NCBI GenBank assembly: GCA_946807835.1
Contig: OX327712.1
Location: 12,728,001 to 12,792,000 of the forward strand
Origin: Ailanthus altissimus
Taxonomy: Eukaryota > Streptophyta > Magnoliopsida > Sapindales > Simaroubaceae
Length of the DNA: 64,000 nucleotides
Direction: 5' to 3'
In this document: positions 6,273-62,996 of the stretch, piece after piece
Layout: each line of letters begins with the position of its first letter
How positions within the stretch are numbered: the stretch's first letter is position 1
The notes under the pieces: generated by a model
Databases searched by the model: none
Told to the model about the DNA's origin: nothing
Seen by the model: only the letters and a program-made list of their open reading frames with translations
Position numbers and translations under genes: made by a program

Positions 6273-6668
6273 CTATGGGTCGGGTATAGGCTTCTCATTC
6301 AATTTTATTATAAATTGGCAAACATGGTCTTTTAGAGTCAGATTCTCAAGACTATACGTTGATGTTCATTTTTGAATTTATTCCATAAATCAAGAAGTTC
6401 ACGTTGCATAAGACCACAGAGATGCATCTCAAGAGTTAATAGGATATCATCCAAAGACTCCTTACTCAGTTCATCCTTAATGAACGAAATTTTGTCTTCT
6501 CGATTTTTAGATGTAAATCCTAAAGAACGACAACTCTGGTTACAATTTCATCAAGCACATTTATGACAGACTTGTAACCTCTTTGCTCATTGCCTTTTAG
6601 CATAAGAGCTTCTTCCAAAATCAGGCATAAAAGAAATAAAATCTTTTACAGACTCACTAGCTAATTGA
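6273..6668 (-). pseudogene. Virus-like cysteine-rich protein, copy A, 3' part
   Basis: The downstream two thirds of the gene at 41709-42257, still recognisable (for example the Cys/Arg block and the end PIPDP before TAG), is separated from its 5' part by the solo LTR at 6669-9279. Additional substitutions break the frame. The 6664-6668 ATTGA pentamer is the target duplication of that insertion. Confidence 0.8.
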
Positions 6669-9279
6669 TGACAGGACCTGACCTGAGACCCTCTACTGTA
6701 GGTTCCAACGGCCCTGCCGGGCACCTCGACGAAAATTCCTCAGAATTTAATCGAGTGAGTTGAGAAATTTCGAGAGGCGAATTCCTTTTTAGTTCTTGCT
6801 ATTACTGAGAAAATCTGGTAATACACATGAAAATGACATCTAAATTTTAAAAAGAAACGGTAGAGTTTCCCCTATTTTTCTGAAAATCCAAATAAAACCT
6901 ACAAGAAAATTTCACTTTTATTTCAAATACTTCTCAATATCACCAATTCGGACATCCGGTCCTTTCCAACCCAAATCTAACATAACTCAATAGTTTCATT
7001 TAAATCACTAAATGAGCATACTTATAAAAAGTAAAAACGATCATCGTAATATCGAAATCTGCTCTTGTTGGTTCAAAACATACATACATATATACATACC
7101 AACAACTACTATGCAAAAAGTAAAGAGTGTTATTTAACACATCTAAAAGATACAAAATTATCTTTAGATTTGGCCCACTACCCAGCAATAGGAGAATCAG
7201 CAGCTTGCGTACCGAGACTTGCACCTGGGAAGGGGGTTTAGAAAACATGAAACACAAAACGAGTGAGCTAAAAGAGCTCAGTGAATGTAATTAAGATTTC
7301 AAATAAAATAATATTATACATAGATAATAAATTCTAAGTACATGCATAAATCATGCTTCTAAAATTGATGTAAAGCTGTAAAACAATTTCTAACATCATA
7401 TATTGATGAAATTTTTCCGAGTGAATTTTATGTACATTTTTGGAGAACAATATCCAAAATCTATACAACAACTACCATGAGCATATAAATGCATAAAATA
7501 CTCTCGGTAAATCAAAAACTAGTAAAGTCCTTGCTCGGCCATTTTCTTTTCAAACCGTACCAATCGTAACCCTAAAACTCTATACTCACATAGCGACTCA
7601 ATCTAGCATCGCACACGTGAGTAAGTCACGGGGCACCTCAACTAGCAGCACCCACAGTGACATCTCAAGACATCTCATTGGCTATGCAGCGGAATCTTAC
7701 ATCGCGTACCTATAGCGAGACAATACCCTGTACAAATAGAGCGACTTACATGACTCGACATCCCGACTTCTCGGAGTTAGTGACATACCCTAATGACCTG
7801 CCCATGTGCACGGGATATACTGACCGGGTCTAATACAATCACCATAACTATAATCTGAGGATACCAATGGCCTTTAAAATGGATACTGTAATTTAAAACA
7901 GTTTCTTAAACTAAATATGTAAAAGCATAACTATGCATATATATCAAGATCATAAATCATGTTTATACATTTAATGCTCATAAAACATACATTTTCATAA
8001 TGCGAAAACATGATAAACGAAAAATAAAAGAAATGCCAAATTTTCACTCATAAACTGTCCTTCACTAAAGTTTCTTTTCCGAGCTTGTACTTTCACCGGT
8101 TTCGCTCTTCGGCACCTACAAAGCATAAATTACGCTTTAGCCCCCTTAAAAGAAAAAATTATCAAAATACCCCTAGTGCACATTTTTAGCCACCACCCAA
8201 AATTCATTTCTAAATTTACAATTCCTCCCCCAACAATCTCAATTTATACACAAACTACTATTTCTTTGGACATAATTACCCTTAATCTTTGTCATAAATG
8301 ACCATTATGTCCCATATCCTAACTTTGATTTTCACCCATCAAAACTCATCTTAAGGGTCTTAGAATTCATTCTTAACCTCAATTTTAGCTAATTGCACTT
8401 GTACCACTAAAAATCCCAAAATGACCCAAATGAAATTTTTACCATTTTTTAAATTTATTCTTACCTATGGTCTTATCTACTCTCCAAATTTATTCTAATG
8501 CCCTAAATTTAATCAATTGAAGTCCAATTATACAAAAACCCTAATTTACTATTTTAGGGTTTAGAATTCTCACCTTTTAAAGCAAATTTACCCTTAATCC
8601 ACCCTTGAATCTTGCTTAGGCACCTGGAAACAACTTGAATTTGGTGTGGATTCCTTGATTTGGTTTAGAAACTTCATAAGTATCATTGTTCGTCTCTTTC
8701 CCTTCTTCATTTTTGAAATTCTCTCTCTCTCTCTCTCTGTTTTCTTTTTTTTTTTCTTTTTTCTTAACAATTCTTGAAAAAAAATACTTGACCTTTATAT
8801 ATAAACCAAAAAATTGCATAATGGCTCTCCAAGACATGCCTAATTTCTATTTAGTCCTTCAATTAAAAAATATTTGATTGGTGGCCTATAATTTAATAAA
8901 TATTACTAATAACTAATAAAATATAATATAATAGACCAATATATGCAATTGTCCCAATTTGATTAGTCCATATGTCTTAAAATACACATACTTATCCAAC
9001 AAAAATAGCTTACTTAGGGTGTGATACTTACACCAAAAATTATTGGTAAAAATATTGAATTTTCACTACTTAGTTAACCGAAAAAAATTTTAAAAATATT
9101 TAGTGAGCACCCAATGCCTAAATTGACTATAAAAATTTTCAATTGGGTCTATTACGGCTCACGTAAACACTAAAAAATTTTTTTTCCAAGAAGGATCAAA
9201 ATCTAGAACTTCTACGGTTCCCTATTTGTCAAATACCGAAATTCTAGGTATCGACTATAGAGGAGAAATGGGCATTACA
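6669..9279 (-). repeat. Solo LTR of a Tekay/Del-like chromovirus inserted in copy A
   Basis: On the minus strand it runs from TGTAATGCCC to GGTCAGGTCCTGTCA (plus strand begins TGACAGGACC and ends GGGCATTACA). It is flanked by ATTGA (6664-6668) and ATCGA (9280-9284), a 5-bp duplication with one change. The sequence is related throughout to the LTRs at 35408, 47973 and 53156. No primer site or coding region is attached, so it is a solo LTR left by recombination. A CT microsatellite and poly-T tract sit at about 8719-8765. No gene is seen in its 2.6 kb. Confidence 0.85.
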
Positions 9280-9284
9280 ATCGA

Positions 9285-9436
9285 ACCTTGGCTTCAATTA
9301 ACCAACGAAGATCCACAGAGATATTACTCAACATCAATAGTCTTAGTCTTTCACACCGTGCTTCATAAATCTTAAGTATAGTATTTTGAGGCAATAAAGA
9401 AAAATATTTTTTAAGGTTGGCAAGAATGCGATCCAT
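9285..9436 (-). pseudogene. Virus-like cysteine-rich protein, copy A, 5' part
   Basis: This encodes the first 50 or so residues, beginning MDRILANLKKYF like copies B and C, up to EAKVRL, where the solo LTR interrupts it. The upstream region to about 9680 is colinear with the spacer between integrase and this gene in B. Confidence 0.85.
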
Positions 9437-31960: not shown

Positions 31961-31964
31961 TAGC

Positions 31965-32310: not shown

Positions 32311-32316
32311 GGGGGA

Positions 32317-33870: not shown

Positions 33871-33899
33871 TGTAAAATTAGAATTGTTAGATTCGGGAG

Positions 33900-34880: not shown

Positions 34881-34989
34881 AGCTAGTGATAGATAGAAGA
34901 GTTATGCAGATAATAGGAGAAGAGACTTGGAGATTCAGATTTGTGATAAGGTCTTTCTGAAGATATAGCCATAGTATGGAGTACTAAGA

Positions 34990-35370
34990 TTCGGGAAGCA
35001 AGAAAAGCTGAATCCCCGATACATTGGGCCATATGAGATAGTTGAAAGAGTTAGAGAGGTGGCATATCGCCTAAATTTACCAAAAGATCTGGCTAGAATT
35101 CATGACATGCTTCACGTTTTCATGCTTCGCAAGTATTTAACAAATCTTTTGCATATCCTAAAGAAACAGTTAGTAGAACTGAACGAGAATTTGACCTACG
35201 AAGATAAGCCTATGCAAATCCTAAACAGGAAAGAACAAGTGCTTCGTAATAAAAGCATTCCCTTAGTGAAGGTGTTATGGATGAACCATGGAGTAGAAGA
35301 AGTCACGTGGGAACGTGAAGATCAAATACGAGTACAATATCCCCACCTTTTCGAGACATGTACGTTTTAA
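34990..35370 (+). pseudogene. Element D integrase C-terminus with chromodomain
   Basis: Contains AYRLNLPKDLARIHDMLHVF and, near the end, VLWMNHGVEEVTWEREDQIR, the chromodomain core of Tekay-type chromoviruses, which is thought to steer integration to heterochromatin. Its stop is at 35368-35370, 37 bp before the 3' LTR. Confidence 0.8.
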
Positions 35371-35407
35371 ATTTTGAAAACGAATTTTTTTTAAGGAGAG
35401 GTGAAAT

Positions 35408-37828
35408 TGTAATATCTAATCCCTATTAGTAGTATTGGTGCCTAGATTTCGGTATAGAGCAATAAAGACATCGTAGGGTTACCTGATTCTAACACTATTA
35501 GAAATATTTTTTTATGGTGTGCGTGAGAGATATTAGACCTAATTTGGTAATTTCACACTTGTTCAGAGCATCAAATAACCCTAAAATATTTTTGAAATTT
35601 TTTCTTATTGGCTTAGAAAAGGAAATTTTAATTTACTACATGAATTTTCATTTAAGGGTTATGTATCAAACAAGCATTTGTTGAGGAACACAATCCACAT
35701 ATTAGAGAATGGACCAATTAGAAACAATCTCATGAATTGCCAAGTTGGGTATTCTAGTTAGTTCCTTGGACTATTCTAACTAGATAATTACAAAGGAACC
35801 AATTACATACTTAGTTTTCAACTAATGATAATTTAGAAATTTTGAGTTAGTTGAGGGGAAAATTGATCTTTTGAGAGAGCACTATATATATATGGTAAAA
35901 GTGTGTAGAAATTTCAAAAGAGTAAAGTTAAACACTTAGAGCACAAGAGAGCAAAATTCGTGCAAGAAGGGTGGTGCTACTATAGTGACATTTCAATTTT
36001 TTTTCTTCATAATATTTTATGCTTAACGAAGCTATAAGAAGGTCAAGCATAAGTCCCTAAGCTCAATTGAAGCCTCCATTAGTGAAAGTTTAAGAAAAAG
36101 AGGTAAGAAAAGCATTGTTTTGTGAGATTAATATGTGAACTTTTAAGATTGTTTCAATTGATGTTCTTGTGTGTATTCTTGGTTTAGATTGAGTTGAATT
36201 CTAGTGTAAAGCTTGAAGGAGTCATCAATGTGAAGAAATTGACAAGGTAAGAATTAGGGTTTTGGGTGATTTAGATGTATAGACTTCAATTAGTTATAGT
36301 TAGGACATTAGAATGAAATTGGCTTGATTTTGATGTAATAGGAACAAGAATTTGAGAAAAGAAATATGTTGGAACATAGGGTGAAATTATGCCACTTTAG
36401 GGAAGTTAGGGATTGAGTTGTGTTTCGGTTGAATTGTTGTGTATAAATGGTGCTTTTTGTAAATTGAATGTATATGGTTGATGGAAAAATAAAAAATGAA
36501 GAAAATGGGACATAATTATCCATTTTGAAAAGGTAAAGGGCAATTATGTCCAACCGAAATTATAGGTATTAAGAAATTTTCAGGGTGTCGAATGGTAAAT
36601 TAGACAAGATTGAATGGCTCTGTAAATGGAAATCATAAAGTAGTATCTATCTGGACTTTTATGCTGATTAGGGCATTTAGTATTTAAATGAGGTTCTAGC
36701 ATTCGATTTGGTTCTACATGTCATTTATGGCGTGCAGGTGAAGAAAACTGAGACCGGTAACGGGAGTAGAAATCCAGAGTGAAATTGAACTTAGAGCTGT
36801 TGTGAGTGAAAACCCGTTATTTTGTTTATTATGTTTTTGCATAATGAAATTGTATGTTTTAAGAGCTTTTAATGCATAGACCTTATTGCTTATTTTGATA
36901 TATATCCATAGATATGCATTTATATGTTCGGTTTAAGAAACAGTTTTAAAATTACTACATCAGTTTCAAATACCATCGGTACCCTCAGATTGTAGTGGTG
37001 GTGATTGTATTAGACTTAGCCGGTATATCTCGTACACATGGGCAGGTTTTGGGGTATGTCATTAACTCTGAAAAGTTGGGATGTCAAGTCATGTGAGTCG
37101 CTCTATATATACAGGGTATTGTCTCGATGTATGCGATGTAAGATTCTACTGCATACCCAGTGAGATGTCTTGAGATGTCATTGTGGGTGCTGCTAGTTCA
37201 GGTGCCCCATGACCTACTCACGTGTGCAGTGCTAGTTGAGTCGCTATATGAGTATAGGGCTTTAGGTTACCATTGGTACAATTTAGAAAAAAAATGCCTA
37301 AGCGAGGGCTTTAATAGTTTTCGAACTATCGATTGCATATTATGCATTTATATGCACATGCTAGTTATTATATTGTAATGATTTTAGATATTATTTTCCG
37401 AAGATGTAAGTAAAACCTGCTCAGCAAGATTTTATCGGAATATGATATTAGAAATCGTTTTACAGCTTTATACCAGTTTAAAAGCATGATTTATGCATGT
37501 CTTTTAGAATTTAATATGTATACCTAGTGTTATTTTTATTTGAAATCTTAAATGCAGTCACTGAGCTCCTTTAGCTTACTCGTTTTGTGTTATATTTTTT
37601 CTAAACCCCCTTCCCAAGTGCAGGTTTCGGTACGCCAGCTTTTAATTCTCCAATTGCTAATTGGTGGGCCAAATCTAAAGATCATTTTGTAAATATAAAT
37701 GTGCTAAGTAGCACCCTTTTTTGCTTTCTGCATACTAATTATTGGCATATGTATTTGTATGTATGTTTTGAACCAACTAGAAGAGATTTTAAAATTATCA
37801 TGATCGGTTTATTTTTTATGAGTATGCT
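35408..37828 (+). repeat. Element D 3' LTR, first part
   Basis: It starts TGTAATATCT and matches, in reverse complement, the solo LTR ending at 50744 over its whole length. It is cut at 37828 by copy B. Compared with that solo LTR, the distal end (47743-47794) lacks about 300 bp before the terminal GTTCTGTCA. No gene is seen in it. Confidence 0.85.
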
Positions 37829-39369
37829 TGTTTACGCTCAAAATATAATGCGGCTATCGCAGTATAGATTGAGGTGTCGATCTCACGAGGAAGCTCTTGG
37901 CAAAATAGGTTAGTAAAGTAAAATATTAAAGCAGTAGCAAAGGGTTAATTAATTTAAACGGATGAGATAGAATTGTCTATGAATTGAGGAAAATATCTTA
38001 TGATGATTTAAGCAAGGCTTTGAGAATCACAATTATGCTTTATAAATCTACTCTATGCTTTGATTCGATATTTATAACTCAACTGAAAGTTTCACATCCC
38101 AAACAATCAATCGGAAGGTATGTAATATATAGCACATTTGATAACACATGTATTTGATTTAGTTAAATTCTTTACAAGCATTAACACACATCATGTTATT
38201 TATACAAGTTATCTAAGATCGACAATATTGCAGTAAAAAATTAACTTGAATATCAAATATTTATTGCCCTTACATGTTATCCAAGATCGACAATATATCA
38301 AATTGACAATACTGCAGTAAAAGATTAACATATAAAACAATGTAACCAGTAACAATTATAAACCAACATGAATCACATAAGAAAAGCATGACTGAACATA
38401 TATGAGACATGAGAATTATAACCTCTGGATTATAGAAAATAAAATAGATAAGAGTTTAATCAAAACTAAACTTACAACATTTATAGCTCTTGACACTGAA
38501 TCAAAGCATGGAAGTAGATTTACTACACATAAAAGTTCATCTCTTAGCCTTGCTAGGAACTCTAGCTTAAATTACAATACATGTTAATGAGAATAAAAGA
38601 AGAGAGAATTCTCTCTTCTTAAAAACGTCCTAAGTGTCTCCTTATATAGGCAATGAATGGACATATGTCATGGATGACATCAATCTTCAATAATTTTAAG
38701 CCAATAACTCATGTATCCATTTGCAACATGTTTTTGATAATGTAAATGATCAATTCAACTTCTGAAGCCGACATAAAAGTTGTAGCATTTTGACTATTCT
38801 TTCCATAGGCACTGATTTCATGCAAATTGGATGAGTATCCAATGAGATATGAGCAAAATTCCAAAGATACATCAGAATTCGGCCAACAACCATTTTACCC
38901 ACTTGCAATGCGATTTGGTCCATGATAACGGCTGATTTGGACTTTACCATAAAAATACGAGTTGTTGATAGTTAAGTCAGAAATTCACAGCTTCAAGAAT
39001 TATACCAATTGAGTACGTATTTTGTGAGATACGGTCTAAATACGTGAGTTGGGTCAAGCTGGGTAAGAGTTGTAGTTCGATTCTGTTGTATCTCAATTTT
39101 TGGCCCATAACATGTTAGATTTGGCTTTTCCACTATTCTTCAAATTTGTGTAAGATTGAGTCATGTTGCACGAGGTTTAAGAATTTCTTCATTTCGATTT
39201 CTACATTGAGATTTATGTCCAATTTACCTAAACCTGTCCAAATAACATTCATTAATCACAATTTAAGGAGAACACTTTATTTCAAGCTAAAAATACAGAA
39301 AATACTAAAATTAGTGACATTAAATGGTGATTGAATCTCCTAACAACATGTATTTTCATGTGTTCATCA
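37829..39369 (-). repeat. Copy B 3' LTR
   Basis: 1541 bp; ends TGATGAAC...GTAAACA on the minus strand. Partner 46203-47742. Most differences between the pair are C/T or G/A transitions. Confidence 0.93.
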
Positions 39370-40744
39370 CAGCCCCCAACCAGCTTATTGCTAGTCTCTA
39401 GCAATTCAAGCGTAAATAGAATATGCAAAACTACCTAAGCATTTCAATCAAAACGTCAGTTCGAGATCACTGTTGCTATCATGGTTTTTTCAATTACAAC
39501 TTCCATAATTTGTGTGTGTGTGAACTAATCCATAACCATCTAACCACAAACCACAATAGATATAACCTTGAGAATTTCTCCAAGTAAAAGCCTCAACTCC
39601 ATATCCTCACAGGTGTATGACTGTTTAAAAGGTTAGGACTTCTCTTATGGAGTTGGAAAACAGTTAAGCACTCAAGAAAAAGTCAATTTTAAGGACAGAC
39701 ATATAAACTAACATTGATCCAAAGATAGGAAAATTATTTGTTTAAAAATTAATTATTCATATCATACGCCAACTTTAGAACTTTAATTGGCTTGTGAGAA
39801 TAATACAATTATAACTTGGTGAGAAAACTGTTTTACAAGATATTTGTCTTCTAAAATTGAATGAAGACTTTATTAAACTCAATTGCTTATTATTTTTTTG
39901 TTTCTGGTATTTTTGTGTTTTTTTTTTGTTTCTCTTTTATTTTTTTATTTTTTTGAAGAATACAAGGAAGCATTACAAAGGTTTCTCACCAAATTATATT
40001 ATGCACAAATGTAACCAACTTATCCCTTAATTCAAATAATATCATTCTAAACAAAAATTAACCAATTCAAAGGATCAATGAAGGTTCATAAGCTGTTTTC
40101 TCAACCTTTTCACTTACTCACAAAAGATATGTGAGATTAGAAAAATATATACTTAAACATGGGAATTCTCTTGGCTATATAAATTGAATCATCCATCTTA
40201 CCACAAGGCTTAGCATTGTGCTCAAAAATATTTTGGAAGTCATTCTTTAGTAACCTAGATAGAAACAGTGACTCAACCTAAACAATTCTGAAATCATACT
40301 TAGGCAGAAAAGCAAATTCCTTTATACAAGAATTACCAAGACTACAAGCAGTAAACGATAATGCATGAAATATAAAACAAAATAACAAAAAGTTAGTTAA
40401 AATGCATTTCAAAAGTTAGTACTAAAACTCCTTACTCTGCCATTCTAATTTGACCTAGAATGCGTCTCAAGAGTTCAAGAATGAACTCTTTACTCTGCCA
40501 TTTTAATCAAATGTCGGACCACAAAATTTTTTTATTATTTTTTTTTTGCAAAATGCAACGTATGTCTACTATCCTCCCCCCAAACCAGATGAAACATTGT
40601 CCTCAATGTTTAAATAGAAAGAGATAAAGTATAGAAGACATTACCTAAAACGCCAGTTATTTGAAAGAAACAAACCTGAGAGACACTTAAGCAAATATAA
40701 ACTAAAATGATGGTACTGATAAATAAATAAATAAAAAGAAAAAT
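39370..40744 (-). other. Copy B 3' untranslated region with polypurine tract
   Basis: Non-coding, conserved in A and C. GGTTGGGGGCTG on the minus strand (39370-39381) abuts the LTR and is the expected plus-strand primer. No open frame of note. Confidence 0.75.
40570..40611 (-). promoter_or_regulatory. Conserved hairpin and internal polypurine tract downstream of LOG
   Basis: On the minus strand AAACATTGAGGACAATGTTT forms an 8-bp stem with loop AGGA (40592-40611), followed by CTGGTTTGGGGGGAGG (40572-40588). The same block is at 63119-63157 (C) and about 5159-5193 (A, one stem mismatch). It could be a second plus-strand priming site or an RNA signal. Confidence 0.6.
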
Positions 40745-41392
40745 TTACAAACGAAGTGTCAGATCCAATTTTCGCTTGTTAAGGCCCACTGACCAATCGA
40801 TCCGAGTTATTGCTGGGTCAGGTTCGTAGGTAACTGCCTGTAATTTGTTAATCAATTCATCCGCCTCAGTAGCAGAAACCAGGATCTGTCGCACCGAATG
40901 TGAAATAAAATTCTGTTCCACAGCTTGATCAAGAAAACAAAGTAAGCAATCAAAATAGTTATTAACATTCAACAAACCTATGGGTTTTCGGTGGATATTC
41001 AGTTGGGCCCAAGAGACAATTTGAAAAATTTCTTCCAAGGTACCAAAACCACCTGGTAAAGCAATAAAAGCGTCTACATTGCAAAGCATTCTGGCTATAC
41101 GTTCATGCATGGATGAGACTCGTAATTCTTCCCCTATTGTTTTCCCGGTCAGATTTCCCACGGCCAAAGCTGTAGGAATAATACCTAAAACTTGACTTCC
41201 TCCTAAATGTGCAGCTGTTGACACACACCCCATTAGCCCAAGGCTACCTCCTCCATAAATCAAATGAATTTTTCTTACAGCTAATGTTTTTCCTAGATTG
41301 TTTGCTGCTTCTACGAACACTTTACTCTCCCTAGGACTAGATCCACAAAATACACATATATTTCGAAATTGTCGAACTTGGGTTTCCTCCAT
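40745..41392 (-). CDS. LOG-like cytokinin riboside 5'-monophosphate phosphoribohydrolase, retroelement-borne, intact
   Basis: 215 residues from the ATG at 41390-41392 (an in-frame GTG four codons upstream is not a likely plant start). LOG enzymes cleave cytokinin ribotides to the active free base in the cytosol in one step. Seen: N-terminal CVFCGSSP, Rossmann GGGSLGLMG (47-55), SSMHER (93-98), signature PGGFGTLEE (113-121) with the catalytic Glu, then SWAQLNIHRKPIGLLNVN. Length is normal for plant LOG, but the end (DWSVGLNKRKLDLTLRL) is unlike those I know. There is no intron, whereas plant LOG genes have several, so it was captured through RNA. It lies 316 nt after the cysteine-rich gene, between the LTRs of copy B, and has its own TATA box. 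All copies in A, C and at 30959 are broken. Activity is inferred from intact motifs, not shown. Confidence 0.92.
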   Translation of the reverse strand: MEETQVRQFRNICVFCGSSPRESKVFVEAANNLGKTLAVRKIHLIYGGGSLGLMGCVSTAAHLGGSQVLGIIPTALAVGNLTGKTIGEELRVSSMHERIARMLCNVDAFIALPGGFGTLEEIFQIVSWAQLNIHRKPIGLLNVNNYFDCLLCFLDQAVEQNFISHSVRQILVSATEADELINKLQAVTYEPDPAITRIDWSVGLNKRKLDLTLRL

Positions 41393-41444
41393 ATCTACTC
41401 TCACCTTTATCTCAATATATGAAAATGAAGAAACTGAGGTGCTG

Positions 41445-41453
41445 TATTTATAG
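41445..41453 (-). promoter_or_regulatory. TATA box for LOG, copy B
   Basis: CTATAAATA within CTCTATAAATACAGCAC on the minus strand, 53 nt before the LOG ATG. That places a transcription start about 25 nt before the ATG. Position and sequence are kept in A and duplicated in C, which supports an internal pol II promoter. Confidence 0.55.
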
Positions 41454-41708
41454 AGTACTAAATGATAACAATGATTATGGTAACCCGACAGTTTGTCAAA
41501 AGAGAGTTAAAAATAAAACACAAAAAATTTAAACATAATGACCCACATGCATTATTGAACAAAAAGATTTGAATTTAAGACATCTACATGAGTAGCCCTA
41601 CTATTCATAAAATAAAGTTTGAAATTAAAACACATGTATTTACAAGTAGTTGTGATTGTGGCTCATATCTTCCTCTGGTTTTACGTCCAGTAACGGCTTA
41701 AACGCCCT

Positions 41709-42257
41709 CTATGAGTCGGGGATAGGCTTCCCATCCAATTTTCTTATAAATTGGCAAACAGGGTCTTTTAGAGTCAGATTCTCGAGACTATACCGTTGAT
41801 GTTCATTTTTGAATTTGTTCCATAAATCGAGAAGTTCACGTTGCACGAGCCTACAGGGATGCGTCTCAAGAGTCAATAGGATATCATCCAAAGACTCCTT
41901 ACTCAGTCCATTCTTAATGAACTGAATTTTGTCTTCTCGATTTCTAGATACGAATCCTAAAGAACGACAACTCCGATTACAATTCCATCGAGCACATTTA
42001 TGACAGACTTGTAACCTTTTTGCTCGTCGCCTTTTGGCATAAGAGCTTCTTCCAAGACCAAGCATATGAGAAACAAAATCATTTTCAAACTCACCAGACA
42101 ACCGAACCTTAGCTTCAATTAACCAACGAAGGTCCACAGGGATATTACCCAACATCAATAGCCTGAGTCTTTCACACCGTGCTTTGTAAATCTTAAGTAG
42201 AGCATTTTGAGGAAATGAAGGAAAACATTTTTTAAGGTTGGCAAGAATGCGATCCAT
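41709..42257 (-). CDS. Virus-like cysteine-rich nucleic-acid-binding protein (carla/allexivirus CRP type), intact
   Basis: 182 residues, basic. The central block GRSSYAKRRRAKRLQVC (69-85) followed by C88, C93 and C97 has the layout of the small zinc-finger proteins at the 3' end of carlavirus and allexivirus genomes (glycine-rich G-x-S-x-YA, arginine-rich nuclear-targeting stretch, then CxxC). Those viral proteins bind nucleic acid, weaken RNA silencing and, in one chrysanthemum carlavirus, act in the nucleus as a transcription factor promoting cell proliferation. The N-terminal 60 residues (MDRILANLKK start) and the C-terminal 80 residues are longer than in the viruses and unrecognised. It occupies the env-like position after pol and precedes LOG on the same strand. 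The match is by motif only, so a cellular zinc-finger origin cannot be excluded. Confidence 0.75.
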   Translation of the reverse strand: MDRILANLKKCFPSFPQNALLKIYKARCERLRLLMLGNIPVDLRWLIEAKVRLSGEFENDFVSHMLGLGRSSYAKRRRAKRLQVCHKCARWNCNRSCRSLGFVSRNREDKIQFIKNGLSKESLDDILLTLETHPCRLVQRELLDLWNKFKNEHQRYSLENLTLKDPVCQFIRKLDGKPIPDS

Positions 42258-42505
42258 TTTGAAAGAAAGAAAAGAGATGAATGCACAGTTTGAGGGACAG
42301 TTTTTAGGGAACTGAGAAACCGACTTTAATAGTCACGGAATACCGTATCCGCCACTTGACCGGGAAATAAAATCACACTGAAGAAAAAATAAAAAGAAGA
42401 AAATAAAGTAAAATAAAATGTGCAAGAAAATAAAAGAAAAAATAGAAAGTCAAAAGATAAAATATAGACAAAATATAAAATATGGTACAGATAGACTGAA
42501 CCTGA

Positions 42506-43834
42506 TCAATCATGATAGACAGGATCCACAAGAGGGATCTCGCCTAGGTACATAGAGTCCTTTACCTTTTCCACGTAGCTTTTTAGCCACTGTCCATTCA
42601 CTTTGAAAGTCCGTCCATCAATGGGGTCTTCTATTTCAACAGCACCATTAGGAAAAACATGTCTTACTATAAATGGACCAGTCCATCGAGATCTCAACTT
42701 TTCAGGGTGTAAATGCAATTGAGAATCATAAAGATAGACCCGTTGATTTGGCTCAAAGTGTTTCCTTGAGATCTGTTTATCATAAGCTACTTTCATTTTA
42801 GCTTTGTAGATACTGGAGTTGTCATATGCGTCATTTCGTAGCTCTTCTATTTCTAACAATTGTAACTTTCTCTGGAGACCTGCAGCATTCAAATCAAAGT
42901 TAAGGGCTTTGACAGCCCAATAAGCTTTATGAGGTTTTCTAGAACTGAAATGTGTTCCTTGGTCACCAATGATGACACGTGGTGTCTCGAGTTTTGATGA
43001 TTTTGGTTTCTCCCTCTCACATGGCAACTTTTCAATGCCTAGTTTCCAAAATCGAATCCCTTTATCCTTTGAGTCAAAAATACTAAACATATCAGTTGTT
43101 TCATCAAGATAATACAATTCTTCAATATCAAAATCAAAGAGATTTTCTAAAGAATTAGAGCCATAATTTTTATAAGCTTCCTCCGCTCCAAGTGTGTCTA
43201 TCATATATGAATGATAGCATTCGTCTTCTTCTCGTGATTGCTTATCAATATGAAAAATGTTCACCTTAAGAGTCATATTCCCAAAAGATAATTTCATTAG
43301 ACCATTTTTGCAATTAATAAGAACATTAGCAGTGGCAAGAAAAGGTCTCCCCAAAATAAGAGGGATTTTTGACTCCATGTTAACAACAGAATGAGTATCT
43401 AAAACAAGAAAATCAATAGGGTAGTAAAATTTATCAATTTGCAACAAAACATCTTCTACTATTCCCCGTGGTTTCTTGATTGATCGGTCAGCTAATTGTA
43501 GGACTACAGATGTTGGTTTAATCTCACCAAGTCCTAACTGCAAGTAAATAGAATAAGGCATTAAATTTACACTTGCTCCTAAGTCTAATAAAGCTTGACC
43601 AAACTCATGTGTCCCAATTTGGCAGGAGATTGTGGGACATCCTGGGTCTTTATACTTGGGTGGTGTCTTTTGTTCAATCACTGCACTTACTTGTTCTGCC
43701 AAAAATGCAGTTTTCTTCACATGGTGTTTTCTTTTGATAGTGCATAAATCCTTGATGACTTTGGCATAAGTTGGAACCCGCTTAATCAAATTTAACAAGG
43801 GAAGGTTAATTTTAACTTGTTTCAAATGTTCCAA
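42506..43834 (-). pseudogene. Copy B protease joined by deletion to integrase C-terminus
   Basis: A 442-codon open frame. The first half is Athila protease: DLGASVNLMPYSIYLQLGLG with the catalytic Asp, then IPLILGRPFLATANVLIN. At KLETPR it jumps to VIIGDQGTHF of the integrase core, and a few codons later (SSRKPHKAYW) to the integrase end, which runs through RWTGPFIVRHVFPNGAVEIE to the stop. Compared with copy C, two deletions of about 2.2 kb and 0.27 kb have removed reverse transcriptase, RNase H, the zinc domain and two of the three integrase catalytic residues. The first junction lies in a shared CCAC(G) stretch. The frame stays open across both junctions, but a working protein is not expected beyond protease. 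Confidence 0.85.
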
Positions 43835-45357
43835 AATCTCACCTTGAATTTTTGAATTTTTCCCAACCGGTCGAAGAGCTTAAGGAAAAGGCACTGGGAT
43901 TGAAAACTTACTTTCGGGCTCTTTTTCCATTGTGGCCTCTTTTTCAAGGGGGGCGTCTTTACTACTCATAGATGTGTTAATTTCAGGAGTAGGCTCACTT
44001 ACAATCTTACCACTTCGAGTAGTAATGACATTGACTTCTTTGAGATTTTGAACATCAGAAGTAGAAGCTTGTGCCATGAATTGTCCTTTCGGATTGGATT
44101 GAGGTTGAGATGGAAACTTACCTCGATCTTGTACAGTTAAGGCACTGGTCAATTTTGTGATTTGACTCTTGATTTCTTTGTTTTCGTCCACCACCTGTGC
44201 AAGAATTGTTTCAAATTTTTGATTAGTCTTACTTTGTGCCTCCATAAATGCTTGTAATGTATCCTCTAAAGAACTCCTAGTTGGTCGTGCATTATATTGA
44301 GGTGCAACATAAGACTTGGGTGCTTATTGTTCTTGTTTCCATTGGTTGTTGGCTTGTTGGTCAGATTTCCAACTGAAATTTGGGTGGTTTCTCCAGCTAG
44401 GATTATATGTTTCAGAGTAGGGTGAATAAGGCTTCTTGTACATCCCTAGGGCATTACATTGTTCCTCATATATCCTTCTCATCTCACTATACGTGGGACA
44501 ATCCTGAGCTAAGTGTTCCGCTCCTCCACAGACAAAATAGACATCGTGTGACTCAACTCTAGCAACCGTGTGGGTGACCCTTCTATCTTTGGTTTTCAAG
44601 GCCTCTAACTCCCTGGTTAAGACCTCTAATTGGGCTTTGAGGTTATCCTCTTCCCTAAGATGGAAAACTCCATTGGGTCATGACCTATTTGTGCTTTCAG
44701 TAATGCTAGGTCTAGTTCATGTATGGGCTTTTTCGGTTAAGTCATTAAGGAATTCTATGGCTTCCTCAGGATCTTTGTGAAGGAACTCTCCATTACACAT
44801 CATCTCAACAAATTGGCGCTCTCTAATTGTGAGTCCCTCATAGAAATAACTAACCAAGCGCCAATTTTCATACCCATGGTGAGGGCACAGATTTAACAAC
44901 TCTTTAAACCTTTCCCATGCTTGATATAATGTTTCACTGTCTTTTTGGGAGAAGGAAGAAATTTGTCTTTTCAGGCCATTAGTTTTGTGTTGTGGGAAGT
45001 ATTTATTGAAAAATGCTTGGGTCATTTCTGCCCAAGTTCCTATAGACCTCGGCCTCAAAGAGTATAGCCAACTCTTTACTTTGTCTTTCAAAGAAAAAGG
45101 AAAAATTTAAGTCTAACAGTGTCTATGGCCTCAGGTTGGCTATGGAAGGTGGCAATTACCTCTTCAAATTCCCTAACATGTACATAAGGATTTTCAATAT
45201 CTAGACCATGAAAAGTGGGAAGAAGTTGTATCATTCCAGGTTTAAAATCCGAATGGGGTGTGTTAGGTGGAAATATAATGCATGATGGTGTGGCTGTGCG
45301 AGTAGGATGCAAGTAATCTTTTAGAGTTCTAACGGGGTTTTCTTTGTGTTGGCTCAT
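43835..45357 (-). pseudogene. Copy B gag (capsid, zinc knuckle, linker) with few stops
   Basis: Starts MSQHKENPVRTLKDYLHPTR (45357). Capsid core: MIQLLPTFHGLDIENPYVHV, then a one-base shift near 45090-45105, then KSWLYSLRPRSIGTWAEM and QAFFNKYFPQHKTN. A TGG-to-TGA stop follows at about 44717. The knuckle is VYFVCGGAEHLAQDCP, where the first Cys of CX2CX4HX4C has become Tyr. The linker 43880-44245 ends in TAA just before the protease frame. In copy C the arrangement is the same, so gag-pro-pol was originally one long frame, as in Athila. Confidence 0.85.
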
Positions 45358-45610
45358 TGTGTTAGAATTACAAGATGAACTAGAAGGTGAATTCTCTTCA
45401 CTTATAAATTATGGGGTGGTTCTAGTTCTAGTTCTAGTTCTCTCACAAATCTTCCTCGTTTGTCTCTAAATCGATGCATACATCCTAACAACAATATTAT
45501 TTTTTATTTATTTATTTATTTATTTTTATTTTTTATTATTTTTTTTTAAGGAAAGAAATGCTTAAGAAAAATTAAGAAGTGGAATAAATACAACAATAAA
45601 TAGAAATGAG

Positions 45611-46062
45611 TTAGGTGGTAAGACCAATCATGAAATATAAATACAATAACTAAACAAAAGACTATAAAGTACAAAAAAAAAGTACAATAAATAAATAATA
45701 AAAAGAAAATACAATAAGTAAATAAATAAAAGGTTAGGCGGTAGAACTGGCCATAAAAAGAAAATACAACATGTTAACTAAAGTAAATAAAGTGCAATAA
45801 ATACGTAAAAGAAAATGAAAATAACGTGCAATAAAAAAAGTGAATTAAATAAATAAAGTACAATAAAAAAAAATAAAGAAACAAAGTTAGGCGGTAGAAC
45901 CGGCCACAAAATAAAAAGAAAATACAACAAATTAACTAAAGAAATAAAGTACAATAAATAAATAAAAGAAAGTGAACAAAGTTAGGCGGTAAAACCAGCC
46001 ATTAAGATAATATAAAATATAACAAAAGAAATCAAAATAAATTAGGTGGTAGAACCAACCAT
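45611..46062 (-). repeat. Array of five short hairpin motifs in the copy B leader
   Basis: Minus-strand consensus GGYYGGTTYTACCRCCTAA at 45611-45630, 45734-45754, 45887-45907, 45982-46002 and 46042-46062, separated by A/T-rich spacers of 40-130 nt. The YGGT/ACCR halves pair around a 3-nt loop, and C-G to U-A exchanges keep the pairing. The rest of 45358-46178 is AT-rich and non-coding. Confidence 0.75.
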
Positions 46063-46178
46063 GAATAATAAATAAATTACAACAAAGGAAATAAAACTAA
46101 GAGTTTACAAAGAAAAGAAAATATACAAAGTTACCACTTTAGTATTTATAATCGCAACCGACTTTCGCTTAGTGTGCT

Positions 46179-46196
46179 TCCCCGGCAACGGCGCCA
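46179..46196 (-). other. Primer-binding site for tRNA-Asp, copy B
   Basis: The plus strand TCCCCGGCAACGGCGCCA is identical to the 3' end of plant tRNA-Asp including CCA, so the element RNA can pair with 18 nt of it. It is 6 nt from the LTR. This primer is characteristic of Athila/Tat elements. Confidence 0.93.
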
Positions 46197-46202
46197 AACT
46201 TT

Positions 46203-47742
46203 TGTTTACGCTCAAAATATAACGCGGCTATCGCAGTATAGATTGAGGTGTCGATCCCACGAGGAAGCTCTTGGCAAAATAGGTTAGTGAAGTAAAATAT
46301 TAAAGCAGTAGCAAAGGGTTAATTAATTTAAACGGATGAGATAGAATTGTCTATGAATTGAGGAAAATATCTTATGATGATTTAAGCAAGGCTTTGAGAA
46401 TCATAATTATGCTTTATAAATCTACTCTATACTTTAATTCGATATTTATAACTCAACTGAAAGTTTCACATCCCAAACAATCAATCGGAAGGTATGTAAT
46501 ATATAGCACATTTGATAACACATGTATTTGATTTAGTTAAACTCTTTACAAGCATTAACACATATCATGTTATTTATACAAGTTATCTAAGATCGACAAT
46601 ATTGCAGTAAAAGATTAACTTGAATATCAAACATTTATTGCCCTTACATGTTATCCAAGATCGACAATATATCAAATTGACAATACTGCAGTAAAAGATT
46701 AACATATAAAACAATGTAACCAGTAACAATTATAAACCAACATGAATCACATAAGAAAAGCATGACTGAACATATATGAGATATGAGAATTATAACCTCT
46801 GGATTATAGAAAATAAAATAGATAAGAGTTTAATCAAAACTAAACTTACAACATTTATAGCTCTTGACACTGAATCAAAGCATGGAAGTAGATTTACTAC
46901 ACATAAAAGTTCATCTCTTAGCCTTGCTAGGAACTCTAGCCTAAATTACAATACATGTTAATGAGAATAAAAGAAGAGAGAATTCTCTCTTCTTAAAAAC
47001 GTCCTAAGTGTCTCCTTATATAGGCAATGAATGGACATATGTCATGGATGACATCAATCTTCAATAATTTTAAGCCAATAACTCGTGTATCCATTTGCAG
47101 CACGTTTTTGATAATGTAAATGATCAATTCAACTTCTGCAGCCGACATGAAAGTTGTAGCATTTTGACTCTTCTTTCCATAGGCACTGATTTCATGCAAA
47201 TTGGATGAGTATCCAATGAGATATGAGCAAAATTTCAAAGATACATCAGAATTCGGCCAACAACCATTTTACCCACTTACAATGCGATTTGGTCCATGAT
47301 AACGGCTGATTTGGACTTTACCATAAACATACGAGTTATTGATAGTTAAGTCAGAAATTCACAGATTCAAGAATTATACCAATTGAGTACGTATTTTGTG
47401 AGATACGGTCCAAATACGTGAGTTGGGTCAAGCTGGGTAAGAGTTGTAGTCCGATTCTGTTGTATCTCAATTTTTGGCCCATAACATGTTGGATTTGGCT
47501 TTTCCACTATTCTTCAAATTTGTGTAAGATTGAGTCATGTTGCACCAGGTTCAAGAATTTCTTCATTTCGATTTCTACCTTGAGAGTTATGTCCAATTTA
47601 CCTAAACCTGTCCAAATAACATTCATTAATCACAATTTAAGGAGAACACTTTTTTCAAGCTAAAAATACAGAAAATACTAAAATTAGTGACATTAAATGG
47701 TGATTGAATCTCCTAACAACATGCATTTTCATATGTTCATCA
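46203..47742 (-). repeat. Copy B 5' LTR
   Basis: 1540 bp, the partner of 37829-39369, with TG...CA ends. It presumably carries the promoter; the TCCTTATATAGGCAATG stretch near 47010-47030 contains a TATATA-like run. Confidence 0.93.
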
Positions 47743-47794
47743 ATACTTGTTTTGTGATTTAAATAAAATTATTGATTTGGGGCGGGTTCTGTCA
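47743..47794 (+). repeat. Element D 3' LTR, distal end
   Basis: Continues 35408-37828 after copy B (TTTTGTGATTTAAAT is shared with the solo LTR) and ends GTTCTGTCA. About 300 bp present in related LTRs are missing. Confidence 0.75.
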
Positions 47795-47972
47795 TAACAT
47801 GCCCAAGGAATGTAACCTTATCCAACAAAATTGGGATTTGTTATGCTTGGCATATAATCGATATTCTCTTAAAGTCTGTAGAACTGCCCTAAAGTGTTCT
47901 ACATGCTCTTCCTTGCTACGTGAATAAATCAGTATGTCATCAATAAATACCACCACAATTTGATCCAAAAAT
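47795..47972 (-). pseudogene. Element E reverse transcriptase, palm and thumb fragment
   Basis: The minus strand reads [20 protein letters not shown] then [15 protein letters not shown], containing the catalytic FIDD. It is bounded by element D on one side and by the solo LTR on the other. Confidence 0.85.
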
Positions 47973-50744: not shown

Positions 50745-50749
50745 AAAAT

Positions 50750-51330: not shown

Positions 51331-51349
51331 AAGATAGCCTTGACATGAT

Positions 51350-51960: not shown

Positions 51961-52129
51961 TGGATCTGCCACTGGGCGTCACATTAAGGTAATCACTCAT
52001 CAAATGGCCCTTATGTCCAAATTTGTAATAACTGATGATCCATATTCTACACTCCCCTGGATGAGATCTCCCACACTTACTGCATGCCGAGAACCTCTTA
52101 AATACTCTCGGCAGCCTTTAGATCCTGCT

Positions 52130-58230: not shown

Positions 58231-59340
58231 ATAGGATAAAGGGACTCGATTTTGACAGCCACGCTTTGAAGAGTTGCCACTAGAGAGGGAGAAACCAAAA
58301 CCATCAAACCTCGAGACACCACAAGTTAAGCTTTCTCCACTACCCAAAGGTTTGAAATACGCATTCTTAGGACCAGGTGATATCTTTCCTATTATCATTT
58401 CTTTTGAGCTTAGTGCTGAACAAGAGGAAAAATTGATGAAAAAAAACATAAGTCTGCACTAGGTTAGACCATAGCTAATATTAAAGGTATTTCTCCATTG
58501 ATATGCTCCCATAGAATTCATTTAGAGAAAGGCGCCCAACCTCGTAGGGACCCACAAAGAAGACTTAACCCAATAATAAAAGAAGTAGCAAAGAAAGAGG
58601 TCTTGAAACTATTAGATGTGGGTATAATCTATCCAATTTCTGATAGTCAATGGGTAAGTCCAACTCAAGTAGTTCCTAAGAAATCTGGGGTTACTGTTGT
58701 TGAAAATGAGAATGGGATACATGTTCCAACTAGGGTAGTAAGTGGTTGGAGAATGTGCATTGATTATAGAAAGTTAAACATAGCCACTAGGAAAGACTAT
58801 TTTCCATTGCCTTTTATCGACCAAATTTTAGAACGTGTAGCTGGACATCCTTTTTATTACTTTCTTGATGGATATTCAGGATATTACCAGATTGAGATAG
58901 CTATAGAAGATAAAAAAAAAGCAACTTTTATATACCCTTTTGGTACTTATGCTTTTCGTAGAATGCCATTTGGATTATGTAATGCACAAGCTACTTTTTA
59001 GCGTTGTATGTTAAGTATTTTCTCTGATATGGTTGAAAAATGCATGGAAGTCTTTATGGATGATTTGACTGTTTTTGGTAATTCTTTTGATTTATGCCTA
59101 CTTAACTTGAAATCTGTTTTGAGTAGGTGTGAAGAAAAAAGACTTATTCTAAATTGAGAGAAATATCATTTCATGGTATCTTCAGGAATCGTTTTGGGGC
59201 ACATTGTATCTGAAAAAGGGATAGAGGTTGACAAGGCAAAAATTAAATTAATCTCTAAATTATCTAGACCCAAAACGGTAAAAGATGTCCGATCCTTTCT
59301 TGGACACGCTGGCTTTTACAGAAGGTTTATACAATAATTT
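58231..59340 (+). pseudogene. Copy C reverse transcriptase
   Basis: Includes WVSPTQVVPKKSGVTVVENE, CIDYRKLN, FYYFLDGYSGYYQIEI, FRRMPFGLCNAQATF and the catalytic FMDD at 59053-59064, then LGHIVSEKGIEVDKAKI and FLGHAGFYRRFIQ. Stops near 58999, 59155 and 59335. The order and sequence are those of the Athila/Tat clade. Confidence 0.88.
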
Positions 59341-59369
59341 TCTGCCATATCTAGACCATTGTGTAACCT

Positions 59370-59919
59370 TTTGTTAAAAAATGCAGAATTTACATGGACA
59401 AAAGAGTGTAAGGAGGCATTCCGAACACTCATTGCCAAACTCACCGCCGCTTCTATCATGCAATCACCGGATTGAAAGCTCCCATTTGAAATTATGTGTG
59501 ATGCAAGTAATTATGCTGTAAGAGCAGTTCTTGGGTAACGTAGGGAAGGAAAACCTTTTATTATTTATTATGCTAGTAGGACTTTGAATGATGCTCAAAT
59601 GAATTACACTACTACTAAAAAAGAACTACTAGCTGTTGTTTTTGCCTTAGATAAATTTCGTTCTTATTTGATTGGTTCACTTATTGTTATTTTTACTGAC
59701 CACGCAGCCCTTAAGTACCTTCTTTCTAAGAAAGATGCTAAAGCCCGTTTAATTAGGTGGATTCTTCTTTTGCAGGAATTTGATATAACCATTAAAGACA
59801 AGAAAGGCATTGAAAATGTTGTTGCTAATCATCTATCCTGCCTTGAGTTCACTGACTCCACTGATTTGTCACCTATTCAGGATGATTTTCCTGGTGAACA
59901 TCTTTTTGCTATAAACTAA
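59370..59919 (+). pseudogene. Copy C RNase H
   Basis: IMCDASNYAV with the first Asp, [19 protein letters not shown] with Glu, and [20 protein letters not shown] with the third acidic residue; end [11 protein letters not shown]. Stops near 59475 and 59536. Confidence 0.85.
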
Positions 59920-61224
59920 ATACCTTAGTATGCACATATCGTACATTATTTGGTTTGTGGTGAACTTCCATCTGACTGGAGTGCACAAGATAAGCGTAAA
60001 TTCTTGGTTGAGGTACGTAATTTTTATTGGGATGATCCATATCTTTTCAAATACTGTCCTGACCAAATCATGAGACGTTGCATTCATAAAAGTGAAATTT
60101 CTAGTGTCTTAAATTTTTGTCATAGTATTGCTTGTGGTGGCCATTTTTCTATGAAGAAGACAGCTGTAAAAATTTTACAGTGTGGTCTTTACTAACCCAC
60201 TTTGTTCAAAGACACTAATAATTTTTGTCGTTCCTGTGAAAGATGTCAAAAGTTAGGTGCTTTATCTCGAAGAAATATGATGCCTCTTAACCTTATTCTT
60301 GTTATCGAGATATTTGACTGTTGGGGTATCGATTTTATGGGTTCTTTTCCCTCATCTTTTGGCTACCTTTATATTCTTTTAGCTGTTGACTATGTATCAA
60401 AAGGGGTAGAGGCTGTAGCTTGTCGTACTAATGATAATACAATTGTGGTAAAGTTCTTAAAAGAAAATGTGTTATCTATGTACGGTACGCCACGTGTCAT
60501 CATTAGTGACCAAGGAACACATTTTTGTAATTATTTTTTTGAAGCTTTGATGCGTAGGTATGGTGCTCTTTAAAAAGTTTTTACTGCATATCATCCACAG
60601 AAAAATGGACAAGCTGAGCTAGCAAATAGAGAGGTTAAACAAATTTTGAAAAAGACGGTTAACCCGAATTACAAAGATTGGTCTCTACGCCTTGCTGATG
60701 CATTATGGGCATATCGCACTGCATATAAAACCATCTTAGGAATGTCCCCATACCGGCTTGTTTATGGGAAAGCTCGCCATTTACCTGTTGAGTTAGAGCA
60801 TAAAGCTTACTGGACTGTCAAGGCCCTTAACTTTGATTTGAATGCTGCAGGTCTTCAGAGAAAGTTACAATTGTCAGAAATAAAAAAGCTACGAAGTGAC
60901 GCATATGACAACTCTAGAATTTACAAAACTAAAATAAAAGTAGCTCATGATAAACAAATCTCAAGGAAACACTTTGAGCCAAATCAACGGGTCTATCTTT
61001 ATGATTCTTGATTGCATTTACACCTTAAAAAGTTGAGATCTCAATGGACTGGTCCATTTATGGTAAGACATATTTTTCCTAGTGGTGCTGTTGAAATAGA
61101 GGACCCCACTGATGGACAGACTTTCAAAGTGAATGAACAGCAATTAAAAGGCTACGTGGAAAAGGTAGATGACTCTATGTACCTAGGCGAGATCCCTCTT
61201 GTGGATCCTGTCTATCATGCTTAA
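59920..61224 (+). pseudogene. Copy C integrase
   Basis: Zinc domain CHSIACGGHFSMKKTA...CERCQKLG; catalytic core WGIDFMG, ISDQGTHF and [17 protein letters not shown] give the D, D, E triad. The C-terminal part is [20 protein letters not shown], then WTGPFMVRHIFPSGAVEIED, stop at 61222-61224. Stops near 60193, 60571 and 61009. No chromodomain is present, in line with Athila. Confidence 0.87.
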
Positions 61225-61462: not shown

Positions 61463-62011
61463 ATGGATCGCATTCTTGCCAACCTTAAAAAATATTTTCC
61501 TTTATTGCCTCAAAATGCTCTACTTAAGATTTACAAAGCACGGTGTGAAAGACTAAAGCTATTGATGTTGGGTAATATCCCTGTGGACCTTCATTGGTTA
61601 ATTAAAGCCAAGGTTTGGTTGTCTGGTGAGTTTGAAAATGATTTTATTTCTCATATTCTTGGTCTTGGAAGAAGTTCTTATGCCAAAAGGCGACGGGCAA
61701 AGAGGTTACAAGTCTGTTATAAATGTGCTTAATGGAATTGTAACCGGAGTTCTCATTCTTTAGAATTTGTATCTAGAAATCGAGAAGACAAAATTCAGTT
61801 CATTAAGGATGGACTGAGTAAGGAGTCTTTGGATGATATCCTATTGACTCTTGAGACGCATCCCTGTGGGCTCATGCAACGTGAACTTCTCGACTAATGG
61901 AACAAATTCAAAAATGAACATCAATGGTATAGTCTTGGAAATTTGACTCTAAAAGACTATGTTTGCCAATTTATAAGAAAATTAGATAAGAAGCCTATCC
62001 CTGACCCATAG
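61463..62011 (+). pseudogene. Virus-like cysteine-rich protein, copy C
   Basis: Colinear with 41709-42257 from MDRILANLKKYF to the stop. The central block GRSSYAKRRRAKRLQVC and the next Cys (YKCA) are kept, then CGA (Arg) has become TGA... reading CA-stop at 61731, and TAA appears near 61894. The remaining frame still aligns. It follows integrase by 238 nt. Confidence 0.85.
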
Positions 62012-62347
62012 AGGGCGTTTAAGCCGTTACTAGACATAAAACCAGAGGAAGATGTGAGCCACAATCACAACTACTTGTAAATACATGTGTTTTAATTTCA
62101 AACTTTATTTTATGAATAGTAGGGCTACTTATGTAGATGTCTTAAATTCAAATCTTTTTGTTCAATAATGCATGTCGGTCATTACGTTTAAATTTTTGTG
62201 TTTTAGTTTTAACTCTCTTTTGATAAACTGTTGAGTTACCATAATCATTGTTATCATTTGAAACTCTATAAATACAGCACGGTACTCTATAAATACAGCA
62301 CCTTATTTTCTTCATTTTCATATATTGAGATAAAGGTGTGTGTAAAT
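62012..62347 (+). promoter_or_regulatory. Spacer with duplicated TATA element upstream of LOG, copy C
   Basis: ACTCTATAAATACAGCAC occurs twice in direct repeat, 62263-62280 and 62284-62301, with a 21-bp period. The second copy corresponds to the TATA box in B and A. The rest is AT-rich and non-coding but conserved with the other copies. Confidence 0.6.
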
Positions 62348-62996
62348 ATAGAGGAAACCCCAGTTCAATAATTTCAAAATATATGTGTATTTTGTGGATC
62401 TAGTCATGGGGAGAGTAAAGAAGCAGCAAACAATCTAGGAAAAGCATTAGCTGCAAGAAAAATTCATTTGATTTATAGAGGGGGTAGCCTTGGGCTAATG
62501 GGGTGTATGTCAACAGCTGCAAATTTAGGAGGAAGTCAAGTTTTAGGTATTATTCCTACAGCTTTGGCCGTGGAAAACCTGACCGAAAAAATAATAGGGG
62601 AAGAATTACGAGTTTCATCCATGCATGAATGTATAGCTAGAATGCTTTGCAATACAGACACTTTTATTGCTTTACCAGGTGGTTTTCGTACCTTAGAAGA
62701 AACTTTTCAAATTGTCTCTTGGGCCCAACTGAATATCCACCGAAAACCCATAGGCTTGTTGAATGTTAATAACTATTTTGATTGATTACTTTGTTTTCTT
62801 GATCAAGCTATGGAACAGAATTTTATTTCACATTCGGCGCAACAGATCCTGATTTCTACTACTGAGGCGGATGAATTGATTAACAAATTAAAGGCAGTTA
62901 CCTACGAACCTGACCCAACAATAACTTGGATCGATTGGTCAGTGGGCCTTAACAAGCGAAAATTGGATCTAACACTTCGTTTGTAAATTTTTTTTT
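62348..62996 (+). pseudogene. LOG-like enzyme, copy C (start lost)
   Basis: Aligns with the intact LOG of B. The ATG is ATA (62348-62350), an early TAA follows (about 62372), 9 bp are missing after GESK, GGG of the Rossmann loop reads RGG, the signature reads PGGFRTLEE, and TGA replaces Cys after NVNNYFD (62783). The last 50 codons to TAA at 62994 are open and close to B. Confidence 0.88.

Follow-up and report, generated by a model that had tools for sequence, protein, structure and literature searches.

An accessory pair of a CRP-type gene and a LOG-derived gene in an Athila-like retrotransposon of Ailanthus altissimus

An Athila-like LTR retrotransposon of Ailanthus altissimus carries a pair of accessory genes, one of the viral CRP type and one derived from a LOG gene. 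The pair is real, and each gene has many conserved relatives in plants. It was found in a stretch of 64,000 nucleotides of contig OX327712.1, here called the window. Relatives of both genes occur in many plants, which hints at a set of tools for dealing with the host cell. The explanation that we rate best, with a probability of roughly 0.45 as judged from sequence, is that a conserved CRP-type protein and a remodelled LOG would act together in nuclear manipulation of the host.

Results

Structure of the element and its copies

Three copies of the element (A, B and C) were located in the window, and their features are listed in Table 1. The LTR pair of copy B is 97.9% identical over 1542 columns. 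The copy ends in TG..CA and is flanked by ATGCT and ATACT, a target duplication matching at 4 of 5 positions. Its primer-binding site, TGGCGCCGTTGCCGGGGA, is presumably of the tRNA-Asp type, which we take to be typical of Athila. The gag of copy B gave a Pfam match to PF03732. Copy C starts at 53515 on the plus strand and contains gag, and its 3′ LTR lies beyond the window. In this copy, RT, RNase H and integrase are followed by the extra frames, which is the Gypsy order; most of that pol is absent in copy B. The LTR pair, the TG..CA ends, the target duplication and the Gypsy order in copy C bear out the placement in an Athila-like element proposed by the initial annotation of this DNA.

Table 1. 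Coordinates of the retrotransposon copies and their parts in the window
Feature	Position	Strand	Remarks
Copy A, CRP-type frame	6279..9436	(-)	stops; pieces 9436-9278 and 6667-6279
Copy A, LOG frame	5963-5330	(-)	stops and frame shifts
Copy B	37829..47742	(-)	Athila-like LTR element without most of the RT-integrase region
Copy B, 5′ LTR	46203..47742	(-)	
Copy B, primer-binding site TGGCGCCGTTGCCGGGGA	46179..46196	(-)	
Copy B, CRP-type gene	41709..42257	(-)	182 aa, intact
Copy B, LOG-derived gene	40745..41392	(-)	215 aa from ATG, intact
Copy B, 3′ LTR	37829..39369	(-)	G-rich purine tract before it
Copy C, RT, RNase H and integrase pieces	58498..60573	(+)	separate frames; PF00078, PF17917, PF00665 above cut-off
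Copy C, CRP-type frame	61463..62005	(+)	2 in-frame stops
Copy C, LOG frame	62336..62983	(+)	2 in-frame stops, 9-base gap

The two open frames of copy B were found where they had first been placed, at 41709-42257 and 40745-41404 on the minus strand. The second interval is the longest form of the LOG frame (219 codons from a GTG); the ATG at 41392 is the start used by the nearest relative, P0121. Both frames sit between a pol remnant and the 3′ LTR on the minus strand. Copy B lacks a 2.5 kb pol stretch that is present in copy C, yet both of its extra frames are intact. The position between pol and the 3′ LTR, as originally described, thus holds for copy B only with a pol remnant, and copy C has the pol with its 3′ LTR outside the window. 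With LTRs 97.9% alike, the region from RT to integrase gone and the extra genes intact, copy B is possibly a non-autonomous form.

The recurrence of the pair in separate copies was also borne out, since both genes are seen together in 3 of 3 copies; their order in copy C is that of copy B. Among these, both frames are intact in copy B only and are broken in A and C. In copy A, the LTR pieces of which are 88% identical, an insertion of ~2.6 kb (6661-9276) splits the CRP frame. The window contains 67% A+T and 7.5% stops per codon; given this composition, the chance of an open run per start is ~6e-7 for 182 codons and ~4e-8 for 219 codons, and chance open frames were rejected.

Further repeats were observed around the copies. 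Within the insertion in copy A (6661-9276), the part at 6671-8053 is common to 47975-49359 (82%). Gypsy-type repeat pieces, 66-80% identical, flank copy B in inverted orientation (31242-37828 and 47794-52490). The leader between the 5′ LTR and gag contains internal direct repeats, at 45586-46134 in copy B and at 55133-55746 in copy C. A further Athila-type gag-protease stretch at 13225-13344 (-) shares 36% identity with a Xanthoceras LOG gene model across 42 residues. At 30988-31233 (-), a second TE-type LOG of another kind survives as a remnant truncated by a further Gypsy-type stretch; it is 62% identical to P0184 and at best 46% to the host set defined below.

The CRP-type protein

The initial annotation had assigned the product of the upstream frame to the viral CRP type on the basis of its layout. 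Two Pfam families agree with this assignment, PF01623 (Carla_C4; 31.4 bits, cut-off 20.9) and PF05515 (Viral_NABP; 29.7 bits, cut-off 23), and neither was matched by any of five decoys (one reversed and four shuffled versions of the protein), some of which matched other families below the cut-offs. The search for relatives returned 485 proteins at E<=10; named ones among the best 120, which were listed, come from Populus, Xanthoceras, Acer and Rhamnella. The window protein and 92 of the 120 listed relatives, chosen by length and identity, were aligned. Among these 93 proteins, PF05515 was matched by 86 and PF01623 by 83 at E <= 0.01. Conservation across the family is tight and extends to a C-terminal VCQFIRKLDGKPI block beyond both Pfam matches.

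The window protein has a pI of 9.85 and one basic cluster, which adjoins the cysteines: a basic run occupies residues 75-81 and a C-x2-C-x4-C-x3-C arrangement residues 85-97. It contains no strongly hydrophobic stretch. A PDB search with the protein or its alignment gave nothing significant, and scans of viral_contigs returned no locus. According to the literature, viral CRPs suppress silencing and act as pathogenicity factors, and they possess an NLS and a zinc finger (PMC12172455, PMC10141686). The likeness to the CRP/NABP proteins of carla-, allexi- and mandariviruses (PF01623, PF05515) consists in the Pfam match and in the basic run beside the cysteine cluster. The window protein differs from them in its length of 182 aa, in the conserved C-terminal block outside the Pfam matches and in the finger spacing. 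For carlavirus CRPs, the finger is given as CX2CX12CX4C (PMC10141686), a spacing not found in the window protein. For this reason, we call it a member of the same Pfam families and not a carlavirus CRP. Its likeness to viral CRPs raises the question whether RNA viruses and LTR elements have exchanged genes, in either direction.

The LOG-derived protein and its base pocket

The LOG homology noted at the outset, together with the PGGFGTLEE motif, is well founded. The frame matched PF03641 with an E value of 2.7e-37 (128.3 bits, cut-off 27) and TIGR00730 with 162.7 bits (cut-off 96.35), and it aligned to AtLOG3 in PDB with an E value of 4.2e-64. The NCBIfam model of the cytokinin enzyme gave a score of 112.8 against a cut-off of 300, a model that may be narrow. 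For comparison, we took as the TE-type set the best 120 relatives of the window protein, of 7905 found at E <= 1e-10 among 8000 scored candidates. The label is inferred: element context was seen directly in the window copies and by indirect evidence in a few more proteins. The host set consisted of the 120 best relatives of AtLOG3, plus AtLOG8. At least 120 LOGs are closer to the window protein than AtLOG3 is, and most of them have the same length and the C-terminal tail described below.

Residues are numbered as in CgLOG, in which Lys100 is assigned to both the adenine and the prenyl site and Glu125 to the latter (PMC4979012). Alanine substitution of the AMP-site residues of CgLOG, S19A excepted, is reported to nearly abolish activity (PMC4979012). 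In the window protein, PGGFGTLEE, Arg99, Glu122 and Trp129 are kept, and Lys100 is replaced by I and Glu125 by Q. The same pattern was observed in the best 120 relatives: Arg99 is retained in 113, Glu122 in 117 and both in 110, while position 100 is M, I or L in 114 (K in 6) and position 125 is mostly Q (90) or H (21), with E left in 5 and a different residue in 4. In the host LOGs, Arg99, Lys100, Glu122 and Glu125 are each found in 120/120, and AtLOG8 and two bacterial LOGs also have Lys and Glu at positions 100 and 125. The window protein thus shares with AtLOG3 and AtLOG8 the PF03641 domain, PGGxGTxxE and the catalytic Arg and Glu, and differs from them in the replaced Lys100 and Glu125 and in its LxLxL tail. 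The original statement that all LOG motifs are present holds for PGGFGTLEE and the catalytic Arg/Glu; it fails for the base/prenyl-pocket pair (K to I, E to Q). The retention of Arg99 and Glu122 with the replacement of Lys100 and Glu125 indicates that the catalytic core is retained and the base pocket altered, and makes an output of active cytokinin doubtful. Judging from these residues, the protein is probably not a plain cytokinin enzyme, and the reading as a plainly conserved one was rejected.

A C-terminal LxLxL tail

The window LOG protein ends in NKRKLDLTLRL, a feature that the initial annotation did not mention. LxLxL within 8 residues of the end was found in 98 of the 120 best relatives (TE-type) versus 0/120 host LOGs, and a basic run ahead of it in 93/120 versus 0/120. 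At any position, the motif is present in 99 of the 120 TE-type LOGs versus 6/120 hosts. The sequence terminates exactly in LxLxL, or one residue later, in 97 of the best 120, and all 97 such tails have Leu at the last, third-last and fifth-last place. Ahead of the basic run, the sequence varies, as it would around a short linear motif. The tail is absent in 22 of the best 120; some of these are shorter or oddly modelled, and others show the near-miss LxLxI or LxLxF. LxLxL as such is not rare, being present somewhere in 30 of the best 120 of the 485 CRP relatives.

LxLxL is one form of the EAR motif (PMC7446885). The effector HaRxL21 recruits TOPLESS with a C-terminal LxLxL; for ten further effectors that contain the motif, the same work describes no TOPLESS binding from LxLxL alone (PMC7446885). 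The LOG-derived protein resembles EAR effectors such as HaRxL21 in having a C-terminal LxLxL in a protein made by a plant parasite; TOPLESS binding is demonstrated for HaRxL21 (PMC7446885), whereas the motif of the LOG-derived protein is known from sequence alone. The two proteins appear to be otherwise unrelated. The tail points to a nuclear, transcription-related role, and it may recruit TOPLESS.

History of the LOG lineage

Two trees were calculated. The first contained 57 hand-picked rows, namely 33 of the 120 TE-type proteins with the window protein, 20 of the 120 hosts with AtLOG8, and 2 bacterial sequences. In this tree, the 34 TE-type rows form one clade apart from the 21 hosts (99/93). 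The second was a quick tree of 78 rows, from which the two pocket columns were removed and in which the tail columns were kept. The first to diverge are three Xanthoceras rows (Lys, Glu, no tail). The second branch is the single row P0233 (Lys, Glu, tail), with a fork support of 91, followed by the rest (95). On this tree, one change accounts for the loss of Glu and two for that of Lys, P0214 (Lys, Gln, tail) lying within the rest; the presence of the tail takes seven changes. Through the one row P0233, the tree suggests that capture may have been followed by the gain of the tail and then by the loss of the pocket, an order to be read with Xanthoceras gene models that may misplace the C-terminus and with host LOGs represented by the AtLOG3-like set and AtLOG8 only.

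Selection

Comparison of copies B and C gave dN 0.056 and dS 0.124 for the CRP gene (dN/dS ~0.45) and dN 0.066 and dS 0.057 for the LOG gene (~1.2). Between B and A, the dN/dS pairs were 0.077/0.192 and 0.105/0.187 for the CRP pieces and 0.117/0.151 for LOG. The identity of B and C is 94.5 and 95.7% in the spacers, 91.5-93.7% in the coding stretches and 91.4% in the 3′ non-coding part. No coding constraint is thus visible between the B and C stretches, as expected of silenced, decaying copies, and the ratio of ~1.2 means that the window copies show no constraint on LOG. The changes between B and C are mostly transitions (33/39 in CRP, 33/41 in LOG; G>A plus C>T account for 24 in each), and a reading of selection from these two copies was rejected. 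At 24 of the 29 positions at which the LOG proteins of B and C disagree, and at 16 of 22 in CRP, the residue in B is the one more common in the family; two of the differences in each protein are stops in C. As judged from the alignments, only the protein family as a whole shows constraint.

Linkage of the pair beyond the window

Contig sizes of the listed relatives were compared (114 CRP versus 51 LOG sizes, chromosome-size records left out). For both genes, the lists include contigs of 8723 and 4511 bases, with matching sources (ena, jgi). Finding two common values among 25 CRP and 11 LOG contigs of 3-13 kb has a probability of 0.0002 under a jitter null. In total, 8 sizes are common to both lists. 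Six of them are below 3 kb, where the jitter null expected 2.0, and four (734, 905, 1018 and 1100) are too short to hold both listed proteins. Equal sizes therefore arise without a common contig, and more often than under the jitter null; because of such short contigs, only 8723 and 4511 were relied upon. One Xanthoceras chromosome length is listed for both genes, and the locus numbers (032187 and 032800) indicate that they are not side by side. In two Xanthoceras LOG gene models, a stretch of 33 residues aligns at 48% identity (E 5e-4) with the junction of gag and protease in copies B and C. The evidence for CRP-LOG linkage beyond the window is thin.

Relation to known elements

Two Athila-like elements with similarity to LOGL4 were reportedly described in Steinbauerova 2011. 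A survey of 121 angiosperm genomes lists Gypsy elements bearing the YgdH (LOG) domain from two Citrus species and, with its filter off, from Populus too, in agreement with Steinbauerova 2011 (PMC9289625). The LOG half of the pair is thus not new, and the original statement that no plant retrotransposon with the pair had been described must be narrowed to the CRP partner: no report of the CRP type in retrotransposons was found in the literature searched. By term search, 'Carla' is absent from the main text of the survey (PMC9289625), and the consulted text of a review of extra ORFs (PMC7264820) has no terms for either domain. As far as this literature goes, the CRP-type partner, the altered pocket and the tail are new. 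The Citrus and Populus elements are alike in being Gypsy LTR elements with an extra LOG domain, and differ in that their description in the survey, through which alone they were compared, mentions no CRP partner, pocket change or tail (PMC9289625). An orchid Gypsy element with an AlkB-type RNA demethylase is likewise a case of a captured enzyme with a proposed help against the host; its enzyme is a different one with activity shown in vitro (PMC9289625). Extra ORFs of plant Gypsy elements are described as mostly lacking known domains (PMC9289625). Here, one extra ORF matches a viral family, and in the other a route leading away from a hormone enzyme can be traced.

Discussion

According to the preferred reading, an Athila-like lineage of flowering plants would carry a conserved accessory gene pair 3′ of pol. 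Its CRP-type protein, by analogy with its family, would enter the nucleus, bind nucleic acid and dampen RNA silencing of the element. The LOG-derived protein retains the catalytic Arg/Glu, has lost the charged base-pocket pair and bears the basic LxLxL tail. Through this tail it may work in the nucleus, recruiting or sequestering TOPLESS-type co-repressors, and any leftover hydrolase activity might be directed at a base other than that of the usual cytokinin precursor. The most specific form of this reading, a two-protein nuclear module of a silencing modulator and a LOG turned into a TOPLESS-recruiting effector, which gained its tail before it lost the cytokinin pocket, is tentative, and we regard it as rather unlikely. 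If true, a selfish element would interfere with host transcription in the manner of secreted pathogen effectors. The residues and the tail being defined, the question of retrotransposon effectors directed against host control becomes testable by standard assays.

The LOG protein could instead be a working cytokinin enzyme: by stimulating host cell division, it would aid the spread of the element, with the CRP weakening silencing, as first proposed. Strong LOG homology, the conserved PGGFGTLEE, Arg99, Glu122 and Trp129, and the description of carlavirus CRPs as silencing suppressors (PMC10141686, PMC12172455) speak for it. However, the replacement of Lys100 and Glu125 in the window protein and in 114 and 115, respectively, of its best 120 relatives, and the low NCBIfam score (112.8 against 300, the model being possibly narrow) argue against cytokinin production, which would also leave the LxLxL tail unexplained; we consider this unlikely. 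We give the same low standing to a nucleotide hydrolase whose base preference has changed, perhaps towards unusual or damaged nucleotides, and which would serve reverse transcription and use its tail for import or stability and not for TOPLESS. The joint retention of Arg99 and Glu122 in 110 of the best 120 relatives with a changed pocket fits such an enzyme, as does the basic run before LxLxL in 93 of the 120. Nevertheless, the substrate of such an enzyme would be hypothetical, and Leu at the last, third-last and fifth-last place in 97/97 tails asks for more than an import signal.

That both genes are captured passengers without function, carried by chance and decaying, would agree with the broken frames of copies A and C and with the neutral look of the B-C LOG differences. 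It is very improbable in view of the 485 CRP relatives (E<=10), the at least 120 closer LOGs, most of the same length and with the tail, and the columns conserved family-wide. Least credible of all is an ordinary host LOG gene that happens to be flanked by LTRs, a possibility that the initial annotation had itself named. The uninterrupted frame, the three copies with the same neighbours, the clade apart from the sampled hosts and the tail, found in 0/120 host LOGs, led us to reject it, and two Xanthoceras models fuse a LOG with an Athila-type gag-protease stretch. In its favour are records of the TE type from Populus that bear the name LOGL10. These records, P0206 and P0222, have the TE-type tail and the changed pocket, so some plant genes annotated as LOGL may be retrotransposon proteins.
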